A stretch of DNA of 64,000 bases from Victivallis sp. Marseille-Q1083 (GTDB lineage Bacteria; Verrucomicrobiota; Lentisphaeria; Victivallales; Victivallaceae). The notes beneath the pieces were generated by a model. It was given only the letters and a program-made list of their open reading frames with translations, ran no database searches and had not been told where the DNA came from. Shown piece by piece: positions 3,335-57,886 of this stretch. Position numbers and translations under genes: made by a program. Each line of letters starts with the position of its first letter. The stretch's first letter is position 1. The stretch lies in assembly GCF_903645315.1 (NCBI RefSeq), contig NZ_CAHJXL010000001.1:620001-684000 (forward strand), in the 5' to 3' direction.

Positions 3335-5227
3335 ATCGAGTAGGAGCCCGGTCATTAGTTGGCCGGGCGTCCTCTCACACCACCGTACGTGCCGTTCGGC
3401 ATACGGCGGTTCAGCAGCTTGAGTGCAACGCTTTGTACCGAAGTAGGATATCGTCATACCCTATTTCGGCAATGCGTTGAGACGGCAATACACGATGTAA
3501 AATCCAACTACGGGCAATATGCCAGTAGCCTTTCCTCGTATTCGCCCATTCCCACGCTTTTCCCTCGGAAATACCCAACGATTGCAGTCGCGTAAATCGT
3601 GTCCGTACTCGTTTCCACTGTTTCCAAACATACGTCCGAATTTTCCGTTGAATCCATTCATTCATGTTTTGCATAAACATCTTCATGTCCGCAATCGCAT
3701 AGTATCCGAGCCATCCGACGGTATATTGCCGAAGTTTGTACAGCATATATTCCACCGAATTTCCCTGATTCCTTCGGGTCAGCTCGCGAACCTTGGCTTT
3801 GAAGCGGTCTATAGACTTCTCGTGTATTCGAATTCCGGCCTGTCCTTTCGTCGTACTTCGCAGTGCGAAGCCGAGAAACTTCAGCTTCAGCGGACTTCCC
3901 GCTTTACTTTTGGATTCGTTTACTTTGAGTTTCAATTTCGCTTCAAGAAACCGTCTGCTGCTCGCAAGTACGCGTTCGGCGGCGCGTTGACTTCTGACGT
4001 AGATGTTGACATCGTCCGCATATCGTACGAACTTGTGTCCACGGCGTTCCAATTCCCGGTCGAAAGCGGTCAGGTAGATGTTGCTCAGCAATGGCGAAAG
4101 ATTGCCGCCCTGTGGACTGCCTTCTTCCGTTCGCGTCACCACGCCATTGATCATGACTCCGCTCTTCAAGTAGCGTTTAATCAGGCACAAAACTCGTTGA
4201 TCAGAGATTTTGGCCCGCAACATTTCCATCAACAGCTCATGGTTCATGGTGTCGAAATACTTGCTCAAGTCAAGATCGACAACCCGCCGATAGCCTTGAT
4301 TGTAGTATTTCCGTGCTTGCCGGATGGCCTGATGAGCGCTACGCCCCGGTCGGAAACCGTAGCTGTTTTCTGAAAATTCCTCCTCGAATATCGGGCAGAG
4401 GACCTGCGATATTGCCTGTTGAATCATCCGATCCATGCCCGTTGGAACACCAAGCATCCGTATCCCCCCGTCCGGTTTCGGGATTTCAACCCGGCGCACC
4501 GGTTGCGGGCGATACGTTTCGGTTCGGAGATTTTCAAGGAAACTTTCCTTGTGTTCGCACAGATACGCCAACAGGTCGTCAACGGTCATTCCGTCCACGC
4601 CCGGCGCTCCGCCGTTTCTCTTGACTTGCTTGTACGCACGGTTGAGGTTGTTACGCTCAAGGATGCGTTCAAACAAATCAGCACCGTCTTTCGCTTCAGT
4701 TTCCCGCGTAAGCATGCTCCGCACTCCCGGATTCTCTTCGGCTTCCAGCCTATCCATCCCCGGGCAGTTCCGTTTCCGGATTTTCTGCTCTCTACACATG
4801 CTGCACCTTTCACTTGCGAAAGATCGACTACTGTTCGGCCCTTCCCGTAAAAAAAAACACGGTACTATGGCCTCTGCTGACTTCTCAACGTTCAGCCGCA
4901 CATCACTGTACGGGTTGAAATTACCATGCATTCACGGCTTCATTCATACCGTTGAGATCTCCCCGGATAAGAGCGATAACTTTCATCCCAGGCGCCTGGT
5001 ACATCTACACCACAAGGTTCGGGCAGTATTGGACTTCGCTTTGTTGTGCAAGCTCGTCCGCCTTGCAAATGCCTTATATGTACTTTCTGTTCGTCAGGCC
5101 GGGAATTTGCCGCCGACTTCCTTCAGATTCCACCTCGCGGTGGACACCCTTGCCTTAAGCTAACAGTTCCTACTGCCAAGTCTGTAACGGACTTTCACCG
5201 TCAAGTTATCACCCATGCCGGGCGTAC
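3335..5227 (-). mobile_element. Group II intron, copy 1 (class C-like)
   Basis: A 1893-bp unit repeated at 26821-28713. On the minus strand it begins GTACG (near the usual GTGYG) and ends CTACTCGAT (AY 3' end). Just before the 3' end is a domain V hairpin (about 3360-3410, AACCGCCGTATG paired across GAAC) and a domain VI hairpin with a CTAATGA branch-site region. It encodes a reverse transcriptase without an endonuclease domain. The 5' splice site is immediately after the T-tract of the adhE terminator (5236-5269), the insertion habit known for bacterial class C introns. Boundaries come from comparing the two copies: similarity stops within one or two bases of the assigned ends. Confidence 0.9.
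3411..4799 (-). CDS. ltrA: Group II intron reverse transcriptase/maturase (copy 1)
   Basis: 462 residues from MCREQKIRKRNCPGMDRLEA, chosen because AAAGGTG precedes this ATG. The frame is open 44 codons further (to 4931) without a better ribosome site. Reverse-transcriptase blocks are clear: GVDGMTVDDLL, IPKPDGGIRMLGVPT, YGFRPGRSAHQAI, DLDLSKYFDTMNH, GSPQGGNLSPLLSNIYL and the catalytic FVRYADDVNI (YADD box). A maturase X region follows (VEYMLYKLRQYTVGWLGYY). No HNH endonuclease domain is present, which is normal for class C introns. It promotes splicing of its own intron RNA and reverse transcription into new sites. The encoded protein is identical to the copy at 26897-28285, implying recent movement. 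Confidence 0.92.
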   Translation of the reverse strand: MCREQKIRKRNCPGMDRLEAEENPGVRSMLTRETEAKDGADLFERILERNNLNRAYKQVKRNGGAPGVDGMTVDDLLAYLCEHKESFLENLRTETYRPQPVRRVEIPKPDGGIRMLGVPTGMDRMIQQAISQVLCPIFEEEFSENSYGFRPGRSAHQAIRQARKYYNQGYRRVVDLDLSKYFDTMNHELLMEMLRAKISDQRVLCLIKRYLKSGVMINGVVTRTEEGSPQGGNLSPLLSNIYLTAFDRELERRGHKFVRYADDVNIYVRSQRAAERVLASSRRFLEAKLKLKVNESKSKAGSPLKLKFLGFALRSTTKGQAGIRIHEKSIDRFKAKVRELTRRNQGNSVEYMLYKLRQYTVGWLGYYAIADMKMFMQNMNEWIQRKIRTYVWKQWKRVRTRFTRLQSLGISEGKAWEWANTRKGYWHIARSWILHRVLPSQRIAEIGYDDILLRYKALHSSC

Positions 5228-26820: not shown

Positions 26821-28713
26821 ATCGAGTAGGAGCCCGGTCATTAGTTGGCCGGGCGTCCTCTCACACCACCGTACGTGCCGTTCGGCATACGGCGGTTCAG
26901 CAGCTTGAGTGCAACGCTTTGTACCGAAGTAGGATATCGTCATACCCTATTTCGGCAATGCGTTGAGACGGCAATACACGATGTAAAATCCAACTACGGG
27001 CAATATGCCAGTAGCCTTTCCTCGTATTCGCCCATTCCCACGCTTTTCCCTCGGAAATACCCAACGATTGCAGTCGCGTAAATCGTGTCCGTACTCGTTT
27101 CCACTGTTTCCAAACATACGTCCGAATTTTCCGTTGAATCCATTCATTCATGTTTTGCATAAACATCTTCATGTCCGCAATCGCATAGTATCCGAGCCAT
27201 CCGACGGTATATTGCCGAAGTTTGTACAGCATATATTCCACCGAATTTCCCTGATTCCTTCGGGTCAGCTCGCGAACCTTGGCTTTGAAGCGGTCTATAG
27301 ACTTCTCGTGTATTCGAATTCCGGCCTGTCCTTTCGTCGTACTTCGCAGTGCGAAGCCGAGAAACTTCAGCTTCAGCGGACTTCCCGCTTTACTTTTGGA
27401 TTCGTTTACTTTGAGTTTCAATTTCGCTTCAAGAAACCGTCTGCTGCTCGCAAGTACGCGTTCGGCGGCGCGTTGACTTCTGACGTAGATGTTGACATCG
27501 TCCGCATATCGTACGAACTTGTGTCCACGGCGTTCCAATTCCCGGTCGAAAGCGGTCAGGTAGATGTTGCTCAGCAATGGCGAAAGATTGCCGCCCTGTG
27601 GACTGCCTTCTTCCGTTCGCGTCACCACGCCATTGATCATGACTCCGCTCTTCAAGTAGCGTTTAATCAGGCACAAAACTCGTTGATCAGAGATTTTGGC
27701 CCGCAACATTTCCATCAACAGCTCATGGTTCATGGTGTCGAAATACTTGCTCAAGTCAAGATCGACAACCCGCCGATAGCCTTGATTGTAGTATTTCCGT
27801 GCTTGCCGGATGGCCTGATGAGCGCTACGCCCCGGTCGGAAACCGTAGCTGTTTTCTGAAAATTCCTCCTCGAATATCGGGCAGAGGACCTGCGATATTG
27901 CCTGTTGAATCATCCGATCCATGCCCGTTGGAACACCAAGCATCCGTATCCCCCCGTCCGGTTTCGGGATTTCAACCCGGCGCACCGGTTGCGGGCGATA
28001 CGTTTCGGTTCGGAGATTTTCAAGGAAACTTTCCTTGTGTTCGCACAGATACGCCAACAGGTCGTCAACGGTCATTCCGTCCACGCCCGGCGCTCCGCCG
28101 TTTCTCTTGACTTGCTTGTACGCACGGTTGAGGTTGTTACGCTCAAGGATGCGTTCAAACAAATCAGCACCGTCTTTCGCTTCAGTTTCCCGCGTAAGCA
28201 TGCTCCGCACTCCCGGATTCTCTTCGGCTTCCAGCCTATCCATCCCCGGGCAGTTCCGTTTCCGGATTTTCTGCTCTCTACACATGCTGCACCTTTCACT
28301 TGCGAAAGATCGACTACTGTTCGGCCCTTCCCGTAAAAAAAAACACGGTACTATGGCCTCTGCTGACTTCTCAACGTTCAGCCGCACATCACTGTACGGG
28401 TTGAAATTACCATGCATTCACGGCTTCATTCATACCGTTGAGATCTCCCCGGATAAGAGCGATAACTTTCATCCCAGGCGCCTGGTACATCTACACCACA
28501 AGGTTCGGGCAGTATTGGACTTCGCTTTGTTGTGCAAGCTCGTCCGCCTTGCAAATGCCTTATATGTACTTTCTGTTCGTCAGGCCGGGAATTTGCCGCC
28601 GACTTCCTTCAGATTCCACCTCGCGGTGGACACCCTTGCCTTAAGCTAACAGTTCCTACTGCCAAGTCTGTAACGGACTTTCACCGTCAAGTTATCACCC
28701 ATGCCGGGCGTAC
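26821..28713 (-). mobile_element. Group II intron, copy 2 (class C-like)
   Basis: The same 1893-bp unit as 3335-5227, with matching ends. On the minus strand the 5' end (GTACG) follows the T-tract of the terminator at 28714-28758, just as copy 1 follows the adhE terminator. The 3' end faces the end of aqpZ. Domains V and VI are preserved. The flanking sequences of the two copies are unrelated except for the terminator-like structure, so the unit is a true mobile element rather than a duplicated region. Confidence 0.9.
26897..28285 (-). CDS. ltrA: Group II intron reverse transcriptase/maturase (copy 2)
   Basis: Identical in sequence to the 462-residue protein of copy 1, including the YADD box and the maturase region; the same start argument applies (open to 28417). 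Complete identity means the second insertion is recent or the copies are kept alike by gene conversion. Confidence 0.92.
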   Translation of the reverse strand: MCREQKIRKRNCPGMDRLEAEENPGVRSMLTRETEAKDGADLFERILERNNLNRAYKQVKRNGGAPGVDGMTVDDLLAYLCEHKESFLENLRTETYRPQPVRRVEIPKPDGGIRMLGVPTGMDRMIQQAISQVLCPIFEEEFSENSYGFRPGRSAHQAIRQARKYYNQGYRRVVDLDLSKYFDTMNHELLMEMLRAKISDQRVLCLIKRYLKSGVMINGVVTRTEEGSPQGGNLSPLLSNIYLTAFDRELERRGHKFVRYADDVNIYVRSQRAAERVLASSRRFLEAKLKLKVNESKSKAGSPLKLKFLGFALRSTTKGQAGIRIHEKSIDRFKAKVRELTRRNQGNSVEYMLYKLRQYTVGWLGYYAIADMKMFMQNMNEWIQRKIRTYVWKQWKRVRTRFTRLQSLGISEGKAWEWANTRKGYWHIARSWILHRVLPSQRIAEIGYDDILLRYKALHSSC

Positions 28714-53980: not shown

Positions 53981-54009
53981 TTGACTTTTAAAACAAACTG
54001 TGCTATACT
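53981..54009 (+). promoter_or_regulatory. Strong sigma-70-type promoter of the hairpin-array RNA
   Basis: TTGACT (53981-53986), 17-base spacer, TATACT (54004-54009). The expected transcription start is about 54016, 60 bases before the first hairpin. Confidence 0.75.
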
Positions 54010-54015
54010 AAAAAC

Positions 54016-54084
54016 ATGGGGACGATGGAGAGCAGGATGTTTGATGCAGCCGCTCAACCCGAAATGATCGAACCGGCCGGCTGA
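54016..54084 (+). CDS. Possible 22-residue leader peptide
   Basis: MGTMESRMFDAAAQPEMIEP plus AG, beginning at or next to the expected transcription start, so it would be nearly leaderless. Its TGA stop lies within the first GAGGAG loop. Low support; it could also be chance. Confidence 0.25.
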   Translation: MGTMESRMFDAAAQPEMIEPAG

Positions 54085-54345
54085 GGAGCGGCCAATCGGT
54101 CAGCAGAAGACCGTTCCGCCGGCAATTGAGGAGTATTCCGGCGGAATTGGTGGTTCAAACTTCGCAAAGAGGAGGCGCAAGTTTGAACGGGTCGGTTCGC
54201 CCGCCGGAAGAGGAGCGGCGGGCGAATTGCGGTGCAGCCGGCAAGAGGAGACCGGCTGCGCCAGCCGACCGGTCGGGCCGGAAGAGGAGCCGTCCCGGCC
54301 GGGAGGTGCCACCAAAAATTCGGGTTGAGAGGCTGCTGCTTTTTG
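54016..54345 (+). ncRNA. Tandem seven-hairpin RNA with GAGGAG loops
   Basis: Hairpins in order (5' arm/3' arm): 54075-54079/54089-54093; 54097-54101/54109-54113; 54114-54122/54138-54146 (9 bp); 54153-54162/54179-54188 (10 bp); 54196-54205/54217-54226 (10 bp); 54231-54241/54252-54262 (11 bp, one wobble); 54269-54277/54294-54302 (9 bp plus an inner CGG/CCG). Stems are all different yet pair, while the loops repeat: GCTGAGGAG, TGAGGAGT, AAAGAGGAG, GAAGAGGAG, CAAGAGGAGA, AAGAGGAG; the second hairpin has AGCAGAA. Linkers are 0-7 bases. Upstream a CAGGATG is found at 54033-54039. There is no terminator before the GntR gene at 54363, so it may be a leader, a processed small RNA, or both. GGA in loops is the signature of CsrA/RsmA-binding RNAs; the loops also look like Shine-Dalgarno sites. 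Confidence 0.65.
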
Positions 54346-54362
54346 GGAATAGGATTTAAATA

Positions 54363-55061
54363 ATGACTTACGATCCGAATGCACTGATTGCCGGCGATAT
54401 GACGTTGACCGGCCAGGTGGTCAACCGCCTGTTGGATTATATCAAAACGCACAACCTTGGAGTCGGCGACGAATTGCCGACCGAAGCCAGACTGGTGGAA
54501 ATGTGGCAGGTTTCCCGGGTGGCGTTGCGGGAAGCGTTCTGTTATTTGAAAGCGCTCGGGTTGGTCACCTCCCGGCGCGGCAGCGGCATCCGGGTCGCGG
54601 CACCCGATCTGGTCAACGTATTGGAGCGCCTGCTTCGTCATTTGACCCGCCCCGGCACCGCCGAACTGAACGAACTGTTCGAATTGCGGCGGATCCTGGA
54701 ACTGGGGTGCGTCGGCGATGCGGTGGAAAAAGCCAACGGAGCCCAACTCGACGCCATCGAACAGAACTGTTCGGCGTTCGAACAGCTTATCTGTGCCGAA
54801 CCGCTGGATTTCGACCGCATTGATGAGGCGGAAATCCGTTTTCATGCCGCGTTGATGGCGCCGGCCAATTGCCGGATGCTCAAAGTCATCGCCGCCGCCC
54901 TGGGGGAATTCTTCCGGCAACGGCATATTCTCGACGACGGCGCTTATGAACGCCAGCGGCTGGAAAAGATCAGCCGGGAACACCGCCTGATCGCGTCGGC
55001 CTATCAAATGCATTCGCCGGAATCGGCCTATTTCGCGCTGCGCCGTCATCTGAACTATTGA
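54363..55061 (+). CDS. GntR-family regulator (FadR/FCD subfamily)
   Basis: 232 residues. The N-terminal winged helix is LGVGDELPTEARLVEMWQVS (plus RVALREAFCYLKALGLV). The C-terminal FCD domain has the Arg/Asp/His features (ELFELRRILELGCVGDAV, DEAEIRFHAALMAPANCR, EHRLIASAYQMHSPESAYFA), which bind carboxylate ligands with a metal. The ribosome site is weak (AGGA nine bases upstream). It follows the hairpin array without a terminator, which could control its expression. The MATE transporter gene 157 bases downstream is a possible target. Confidence 0.9.
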   Translation: MTYDPNALIAGDMTLTGQVVNRLLDYIKTHNLGVGDELPTEARLVEMWQVSRVALREAFCYLKALGLVTSRRGSGIRVAAPDLVNVLERLLRHLTRPGTAELNELFELRRILELGCVGDAVEKANGAQLDAIEQNCSAFEQLICAEPLDFDRIDEAEIRFHAALMAPANCRMLKVIAAALGEFFRQRHILDDGAYERQRLEKISREHRLIASAYQMHSPESAYFALRRHLNY

Positions 55062-55120
55062 CGCGTCGGCCGGCATTCCGCCGATTTCTCAATAAAGCGC
55101 GAAAAAATCGTCCCGCCGAT

Positions 55121-55148
55121 TTGACAATGCCGGTCGGCATGCTAGAGT
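55121..55148 (+). promoter_or_regulatory. MATE-gene promoter with dyad in the spacer
   Basis: TTGACA (55121-55126), 16-base spacer, TAGAGT (55143-55148). The spacer contains ATGCCG-GT-CGGCAT (55127-55140), a perfect inverted repeat: a repressor bound there would block RNA polymerase. Confidence 0.55.
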
Positions 55149-55218
55149 ACAGCCTTTACAGTTCTTCGTTGCCTGTCGAGCTTGATTCGTTCTATCAATT
55201 ACTTGGAAAATCAGAAAA

Positions 55219-56685
55219 ATGTTCTCCCCCAAGACCCTCAAGGGGTATGTCAGTCGTCGTCATTTTCTGGAACCCGGCGGTTATCTGGAACTCTGGCGGG
55301 TCGCCTATCCGCTGATCATCATGAGCGCCAGCCTGACGGTCATGCAATTCGTCGACCGCATGTTTCTGGCCTGGCATTCGCCGGAAGATGTCGCGGCGGC
55401 CTTGCCGTCGGGCATCTTATATTTCACGCTGTTCAGTTTCTTCTCGGTGACGATCGGTTTCACTTCGGCGGTAGTCGCCCAATTGTACGGCGCCAAGGAG
55501 TATGTCTCCTGCGTCCGGGCCGCCTGGTCGGGATTTTACGTCGCCTTGGCGGCCGGCTTGTGGATCGCCCTCGTCAATCCGCTCATCGGCAACTTCTTCA
55601 TGGAGCACAGTATTCAGATCGATCCGGACATCATCGAACGGCAGAAGGAGTACTTCCGGGGGTTGCGGTTCAGCGGCGTATTCGTCTGTCTGAGCGCACC
55701 GCTGTTCGCCTTCTTTTCCGGACGCGGGAAAACATTGCCGATCGCGGTAATCAACGTCGCCAGTTGCATGGTCAACGTGCTGCTCGATTACATGTTCATC
55801 TTCGGCAAATTCGGCGCGCCGGCCTGGGGTATCTACGGCGCCGGCATTGCGACGACATTGTGTACGCTGTTCACCTTTCTGTGCGCGGTCGTCATCTTCT
55901 GCACCGTCGATCAGCAAACCTTCCCGACCCTGAGCTGCAAGAAACTGCATTGGGCTTACGTCCGGCGGCTGTTTGAATTCGGCACCCCGGCCGGAATGCA
56001 GGTATTCTTTGACGTCGGCGCCTTCACGCTGGTGGTCATGCTGATCGGCCGGCTTCCGGCCGACGCCCAGAGCGCCACGACGATCGCTTTGACCATCAAC
56101 AACATGTGTTTTGTTCCGCTGCTCGGCATGTCCGATGCCACGGCGATTGTCGTCGGCCAGTATATCGGCCGCAACCGCAAAGAGGTATCGCGGCGGACGA
56201 CCTACCGCGCTTTCCGCATGGCGACCTTGTACATGATCTGCGGCGGCATCATCTATCTGTCCATTCCGCATCTGCTGGCCGGAGTGTTCGCACCGGACAC
56301 CCCCAGCGAAAAAGTGAATTTCGATACGGTGGTGCACTATTGCCGGCTGATTCTCGCCTGTGCGGCATTTTACAACTTTTTCGATGCGATGAAATACATT
56401 TTCATGAGCGCATTGCGCGGCGCCGGCGATACCAAAGTCGTTTTCCTGATCAGCTTCTGCGGCGCCTGGGGCATCATGGTGCCGGGCATCCTGATCCTGA
56501 TCCTGTGGCTGAACGCCTCCGTGCTGACCGTCTGGCTGTTCCTGACCTTCTACATCATGCTGGAGGCCAGTTTCATCTGCTGGCGGTTCCGTTCCGGCAA
56601 GTGGCGGAATATCGAACTGGTCAAAAGCGAACGGCTGGTGCTTGAAACTCCGGTCGAAGAATATGTCCCGAACCGGACGATCTGA
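55219..56685 (+). CDS. MATE-family multidrug/metabolite efflux transporter
   Basis: 488 residues with about 12 membrane helices in two repeats. Typical segments: GGYLELWRVAYPLIIMSASL, MQFVDRMFLAWHSPEDVAAA, GASTVVAQ-like TSAVVAQLYGAKEY, ISLPAGMQVFFDVGA-like FGTPAGMQVFFDVGAFTL and MKYIFMSALRGAGDTK. It exports organic cations or natural products in exchange for Na+ or H+. Its promoter has an operator-like dyad. The preceding GntR gene may regulate it. Confidence 0.92.
   Translation: MFSPKTLKGYVSRRHFLEPGGYLELWRVAYPLIIMSASLTVMQFVDRMFLAWHSPEDVAAALPSGILYFTLFSFFSVTIGFTSAVVAQLYGAKEYVSCVRAAWSGFYVALAAGLWIALVNPLIGNFFMEHSIQIDPDIIERQKEYFRGLRFSGVFVCLSAPLFAFFSGRGKTLPIAVINVASCMVNVLLDYMFIFGKFGAPAWGIYGAGIATTLCTLFTFLCAVVIFCTVDQQTFPTLSCKKLHWAYVRRLFEFGTPAGMQVFFDVGAFTLVVMLIGRLPADAQSATTIALTINNMCFVPLLGMSDATAIVVGQYIGRNRKEVSRRTTYRAFRMATLYMICGGIIYLSIPHLLAGVFAPDTPSEKVNFDTVVHYCRLILACAAFYNFFDAMKYIFMSALRGAGDTKVVFLISFCGAWGIMVPGILILILWLNASVLTVWLFLTFYIMLEASFICWRFRSGKWRNIELVKSERLVLETPVEEYVPNRTI

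Positions 56686-57832: not shown

Positions 57833-57886
<54 letters not shown>

Follow-up and report, generated by a model that had tools for sequence, protein, structure and literature searches.

We found that the + strand of the window (the whole stretch of DNA analyzed here, 64,000 nucleotides) carries six hairpins between 54065 and 54302 that display GAGGAG in or next to the loop and whose stems are unrelated in sequence. Computation establishes the hairpins and the pairing specificity of this array, the match of its promoter, and a second array in the genome, with CsrA and Hfq giving no match. We give about an even chance to the explanation that the array gives rise to a multivalent decoy RNA imitating Shine-Dalgarno (SD) sites, with a CsrB-like design and a partner other than CsrA. 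For the array RNA, we infer transcription, decoy action, and partner identity as follows. A sigma70-type promoter would drive a transcript of ~330 bases; its hairpins, enclosed by a long closing helix, would present the SD-like GAGGAG (mostly AAGAGGAG) in the loop. As the stems drifted and the loops stayed, the loop is presumably the active part. The RNA would titrate a trans-acting factor that recognizes GAGGAG in ribosome-binding sites, and titration would free the mRNAs repressed by that factor, which is the logic of CsrB with another partner; at least one other array of this genome would act on that partner as well.

Structure and pairing specificity of the array

The predicted RNA fold is a multibranch structure at window positions 54046-54336 (+), in which a closing helix encloses the six GAGGAG hairpins (Table 1). 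The motif starts at 54083, 54128, 54169, 54210, 54245, and 54284 on the + strand, and its first G is invariant across the six loops. Hairpins 2 to 6 fold with stems of 11-13 bp, none having more than one bulge or mismatch or more than one G-U pair, whereas hairpin 1 is weaker than the other units (mean unpaired probability of its GAGGAG, 0.68), the minimum-energy fold pairing part of the motif. The initial annotation had described an array of seven hairpins, six of them with GAGGAG, and the sites and folds agree with this description; the seventh, at 54097-54113, overlaps the outer stem of hairpin 1 and competes with this hairpin, so that the seven cannot all be complete at the same time. The CsrB-like CAGGATG reported near 54033 is indeed present, at 54034. 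The initial annotation did not include the closing helix, the downstream gntR, the second array, or the ar14-like opposite strand.

Table 1. Features of the array region and of further GAGGAG loci in the same genome (window positions unless a contig, C1, is given)
Feature	Position	Strand	Details
Sigma70-type promoter	53981..54009	+	TTGACT - 17 - TATACT, TG before second hexamer; 10/12 matches
Closing helix, 5' arm	54046..54063	+	6 + 11 bp (17 bp) around one G-A mismatch; pairs with 54319-54336 (fold)
Hairpin 1	54065..54102	+	GAGGAG at 54083-54088, partly paired in minimum-energy fold
Alternative hairpin without GAGGAG	54097..54113	+	Loop AGCAGAA; excludes outer stem of hairpin 1; from sequence
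Hairpin 2	54114..54146	+	Loop TGAGGAGT; fold
Hairpin 3	54153..54188	+	Loop AAAGAGGAG; fold
Hairpin 4	54196..54226	+	11 bp perfect stem, loop GAAGAGGAG; fold
Hairpin 5	54231..54262	+	Loop CAAGAGGAGA; fold
Hairpin 6	54269..54302	+	Loop AAGAGGAG; fold
Closing helix, 3' arm	54319..54336	+	Followed by TGCTTTTT at 54337-54344; fold
RF02344 (ar14) match	54192..54307	-	27.2 bits versus gathering score 58.8; E 0.0019-0.0029
GntR/FCD transcription regulator (gntR)	54363..55061	+	PF00392, PF07729
Second hairpin array, L181	C1:565.9-566.2k	GAGGAG strand	Stems unrelated; followed by intrinsic terminator
GAGGAG-rich locus, L182	C1:2535.9-2536.1k	GAGGAG strand	Terminator hairpin and T-run, not listed by terminator scan
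Short third locus, L194/L287	C1:3056.5k	GAGGAG strand	TTGACT-17-TATAAT promoter; one local GAAGAGGAG hairpin

Folding of 54010-54350 gave -179.8 kcal/mol (z -7.9), and none of 100 shuffled sequences folded equally well; the triple-GAGGAG pattern occurred four times in the window versus 0.01 expected. Besides, we performed a pairing test in which the 3' flanks were swapped among the units, since under selection for the stems a 5' flank is expected to pair with the 3' flank of its own unit rather than with those of neighboring units. The real assignment of the six units was the best of all 720 permutations, with -134.2 kcal/mol versus a mean of -90.3 kcal/mol. Together with the fold z score, this result bears out the earlier view that differing stems that still pair indicate a structured RNA. 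When the spacers were shuffled, 1 of 200 sequences matched the real array, in which four of six GAGGAG lie wholly in hairpin loops; across 864 kb of this genome, 54 of 392 GAGGAG are located in a local hairpin loop. As a control, 22 of 23 clusters of at least four GAGGAG, drawn from 111 loci of relatives, showed no own-flank pairing beyond chance; the exception was the array of genome G033 described below (5 of 5000), and the next best was locus L153 (4 of 24). When 16 hairpins were aligned rigidly, 50.0% of positions were paired in the stated register versus 56.8% after a slide of one column; the slid register scores higher and the pairing is blurred because the loop length varies from 8 to 11 bases.

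Transcription, strand, and the downstream gene

Transcription is predicted to start near 54016, downstream of the promoter in Table 1, and the promoter scan found four promoter-like sites in the array region versus 0.9 expected. No intrinsic terminator was found after the array by the terminator scan; the closing helix together with TGCTTTTT (54337-54344) may form the RNA end for some transcripts. The ATG of gntR is located 26 bases past the closing helix, and the promoter scan found no promoter-like site on the + strand between the array and gntR, so part of the transcripts probably extend into this gene. Thus, gntR is probably read from the array promoter, the array then being the gntR leader, and the window copy may have a cis leader role for gntR alongside a trans role.

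Promoters, terminators, and G-U counts favor the GAGGAG strand as the RNA. This strand bears the promoters of the window array and of L287 as well as the terminators of L181, L182, and the G033 array, and it has the lower fold energy in all three arrays tested (window, L181, and G033). G-U pairs on the GAGGAG strand versus the opposite strand numbered 8 versus 6 in the window, where the difference alone is small, 15 versus 4 in L181, and 26 versus 4 in G033. The opposite strand of the array also folds well (z -9.1), because any set of near-perfect hairpins gives a good fold on the minus strand, and no minus-strand promoter-like site was found in 54300-55400. The sole Rfam match below E 1 near the array was ar14 on the minus strand, with CUCCUC aligned with the ar14 loops, and we judged this likeness to be a mirror image that shows how the loops relate to SD pairing, not the RNA itself. 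The initial annotation knew of no described RNA family of this kind, in accordance with the absence of any Rfam match at the gathering score. Reading the array as coding sequence was rejected: long frames cross it (340 aa on the minus strand and 77 aa on the plus strand), but such frames are frequent in GC-rich DNA. The crude gene caller called the arrays coding owing to these long frames, and its labels are therefore weak.

Elsewhere in the window, two group II introns, at 3335-5144 and 26821-28630 (-), have identical Rfam scores and are probably copies of one element. At 57833-57886, 13.5 perfect GCAA copies, open on both strands and situated a short distance upstream of a NusG-like gene (58187), form a possible phase-variation tract.

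Further loci in the same genome and in relatives

Four clusters besides the window were inspected after a pattern search of the genome: L181, L182, L194/L287, and L183. Clusters of at least six GAGGAG numbered three in 864 kb, namely, the window, L181, and L182. In the swap test of L181, 10 of 720 permutations were as good as the real assignment, and five of its seven GAGGAG are in loops (shuffled mean, 0.42; 0 of 200 as high). The L181 terminator is visible in the sequence, folds, and appears in an Infernal alignment to an sRNA terminator, and it is not listed by the promoter/terminator scan; a GGGtGRT gene lies on one side of this locus and a DsrE gene on the other. A sigma54-like site, TGGCACGAAAGCCGCT, is situated ~70 bases upstream of the L181 array; the pattern used, written post hoc, has no other match in 864 kb. 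Hairpin evidence was absent at L182, where 68 of 120 permutations were as good as the real one and none of nine GAGGAG was in a loop; a hairpin at its first site was discarded, being inside an ORF of a locus that overall failed the pairing test. The local hairpin of L287, a locus that faces a convergent gene, is lost in the minimum-energy fold of 270 bases, and L183 (C1:3745k) was rejected as an array, consisting merely of ordinary SD sites before genes.

Possible targets of the same partner were seen as well. A single GAGGAG hairpin (L285, C1:2561406) is located in the leader of an HTH regulator, 48 bases before its start, and is absent from the minimum-energy fold of its 120 bases; this leader is a possible target of the partner of the arrays. 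mRNAs with AAGAGGAG as the SD are also possible targets, and AAGAGGAG stands at SD distance before an ATG in at least three of eight occurrences in crude intergenic sequence.

No sequence homologue of the window array was found in 60 relatives. G033, a genome of another genus in the same family, has tandem-repeat GAGGAG hairpins with a terminator (L184, G033:C5:55.0-55.7k, minus strand), flanked by an Rrf2 regulator gene and an hcp-like gene, the latter named from a reading of its N-terminus. The pairing test of this array gave 4 of 20000 and, in a repeat run, 5 of 5000, and as the array is a tandem repeat, its stems are not independent. Among the remaining g8 genomes searched, G024 alone gave a match, limited to a 38-base piece. 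No array was present in relatives' loci L153, L165, L201, L204, and L220, folded by eye, or in loci L291, L295, and L297 of the phylum scan, whose pattern matched 15 of 387 genomes, the window's own genome included. The single-hairpin model R1 was weak, giving matches at E up to 1 in 66 of 120 genomes, with the window ranked first, and a looser pattern run over contigs was too loose, matching at least 119 stretches from many phyla. These wide searches gave many chance and coding matches; the named loci were inspected singly, and 111 loci were screened by script. As judged from these sequences, the distribution of the array is narrow, with one relative having a loosely similar array among the loci inspected. 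Thus, the lack of conservation in relatives, which the initial annotation had named as refuting its reading, was largely observed; against it counts the L181 array of this genome, whose stems are unrelated to those of the window array.

Candidate partners

The initial annotation had pointed to CsrA, for which (PF02599) we found no match in this 99.72% complete genome (G000); PF02599 matches occurred in 8 of 120 sampled genomes, all eight outside the window's family. A remote CsrA-like protein beyond the Pfam model may conceivably exist. A CsrB-like array in a genome where CsrA was not found suggests that a different partner is trapped. The other option of the initial annotation, an SD mimic that traps ribosomes or an SD-binding protein, may still apply. 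Hfq (PF17209) had no match in any of 61 genomes, this genome included, and an Hfq-dependent RNA with distal-face (ARN) sites was rejected: AAGAGGAG fits the ARN reading, but the genome is without Hfq. TRAP-type (GAG)n binding was likewise set aside, as the hairpins do not fit it.

RRM_1 was found in 55 of 61 genomes, and this genome encodes three single-RRM proteins. Both genomes with arrays have three RRM matches, and nine others with at least three gave no array; given also its presence in 55 of 61 genomes, RRM does not clearly track the array. PMC12119571, citing a 2021 paper, states that the single-RRM protein RbpB of Bacteroides binds GUAGGAUA with a KD of 5.1 uM and does not bind UCCUGUGC. 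The array loops have AGGA in common with this ligand. A different, 41-nt leading motif was given by a CLIP study of RbpB, according to PMC11697453. We regard one of the three single-RRM proteins as the first candidate for the partner, with the 16S tail or C-rich small RNAs as rivals. A still wider proposal is a Csr-like global circuit around a single-RRM protein, which would bind GAGGAG ribosome-binding sites and be titrated by RNAs with up to ~7 SD-mimic hairpins; in bacteria lacking both CsrA and Hfq, such a circuit would be convergent with CsrA/CsrB. This proposal is tentative, and we place it on the unlikely side.

Alternative explanations

Alternatively, base pairing between the loops and the anti-SD tail of 16S rRNA might sequester 30S subunits or keep them parked. 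The genome has the standard 16S 3' end, GGATCACCTCCTTTCT, and duplexes of loop and tail, at -7.4 to -9.4 kcal/mol, match what an ordinary SD gives here (AAAGGAG, -7.5). However, the best anti-SD complement, AAGGAGGUGA (-16.1), is absent from all six loops, and so is AAGGAG, which is the most frequent SD hexamer (29 of 382 starts versus 13 of 382 for GAGGAG, as counted on crude gene calls with starts picked partly by SD likeness). Moreover, the first G of the motif is invariant though only a wobble is possible with the tail. The constancy of GAGGAG in the loops, with the better complement never used, argues that they are read by more than just the tail, and 30S subunits form a very large pool for any decoy to sequester; we therefore consider a ribosome decoy unlikely. 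We consider it improbable that the array soaks up C-rich (CUCCUC) small RNAs whose repression works by masking SD sites. The array loops are exact complements of CUCCUC, small RNAs with C-rich loops of this type occur in other bacteria, and the ar14 consensus loops read CCUCCUCCC, but no convincing C-rich partner emerged from 864 kb (~1/5 of the genome), in which 62 CTCCTC were in loops and six passed the filter, with no clear small RNA anatomy.

If the array were only a cis leader of gntR, sensing a factor or controlling read-through with no trans role, the short distance to the ATG, the missing promoter-like site, the lack of a local terminator, and the five T after the closing helix would all be in line. 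The other loci stand against this: L181 has its own terminator and different neighbors, and L287 faces a convergent gene, contexts that show the array design not to be tied to gntR, so we hold an exclusive cis role to be quite unlikely. It is highly improbable that the minus strand yields the functional RNA, which would then resemble ar14 and carry anti-SD CUCCUC in its loops. The RF02344 match and the minus-strand z score would agree with it, but the match is below the gathering score (Table 1) and L181 is without an ar14 match; besides, the promoter is on the + strand with no counterpart on the minus strand, and energy, G-U pairs in three arrays, terminators, and the L287 promoter are all on the side of the GAGGAG strand. 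A CsrA sponge would account for the design, the GGA loops, and CAGGATG, but PF02599 is without a match in the genome or its family, and we rejected this explanation as barely credible because no CsrA was found. An SD-mimicking decoy for another partner is the reading that we prefer.

Comparison with known systems

To our knowledge, every known decoy RNA with repeated GGA loops is linked to CsrA; finding this design where CsrA and Hfq are both lacking would imply that the strategy arose again with another partner. CsrB/CsrC and RsmX/Y/Z likewise have many GGA-loop hairpins on one RNA and several copies per genome, whereas here no CsrA was found, the loop is GAGGAG, a long closing helix is present, and no Rfam match reached the threshold. 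Indeed, no Csr or Rsm family appeared in the Rfam search of the array even at E up to 10. The ar14 family (RF02344), which we take to be the alphaproteobacterial "cuckoo" (CcsR) small RNAs with CCUCCUCCC loops, also consists of successive hairpins whose loops share a motif related to SD pairing, but its likeness to the array is on the opposite strand and below threshold, and its loops are anti-SD whereas those of the array mimic the SD.

No comparable RNA was found in the open-licence literature, as judged from listings. The array would give a first handle on posttranscriptional control in this lineage, and its RNA could be used as bait for fishing out the partner directly. As described in PMC11697453, the FopS RNAs and RbpB of Bacteroides likewise combine an RRM protein with a family of paralogous RNAs in bacteria that lack Hfq and CsrA, but FopS has a single-stranded 5' part and a terminator, with no hairpin array and another motif. 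We class the putative array RNA with the multivalent decoy RNAs as a new form, outside the CsrB family.
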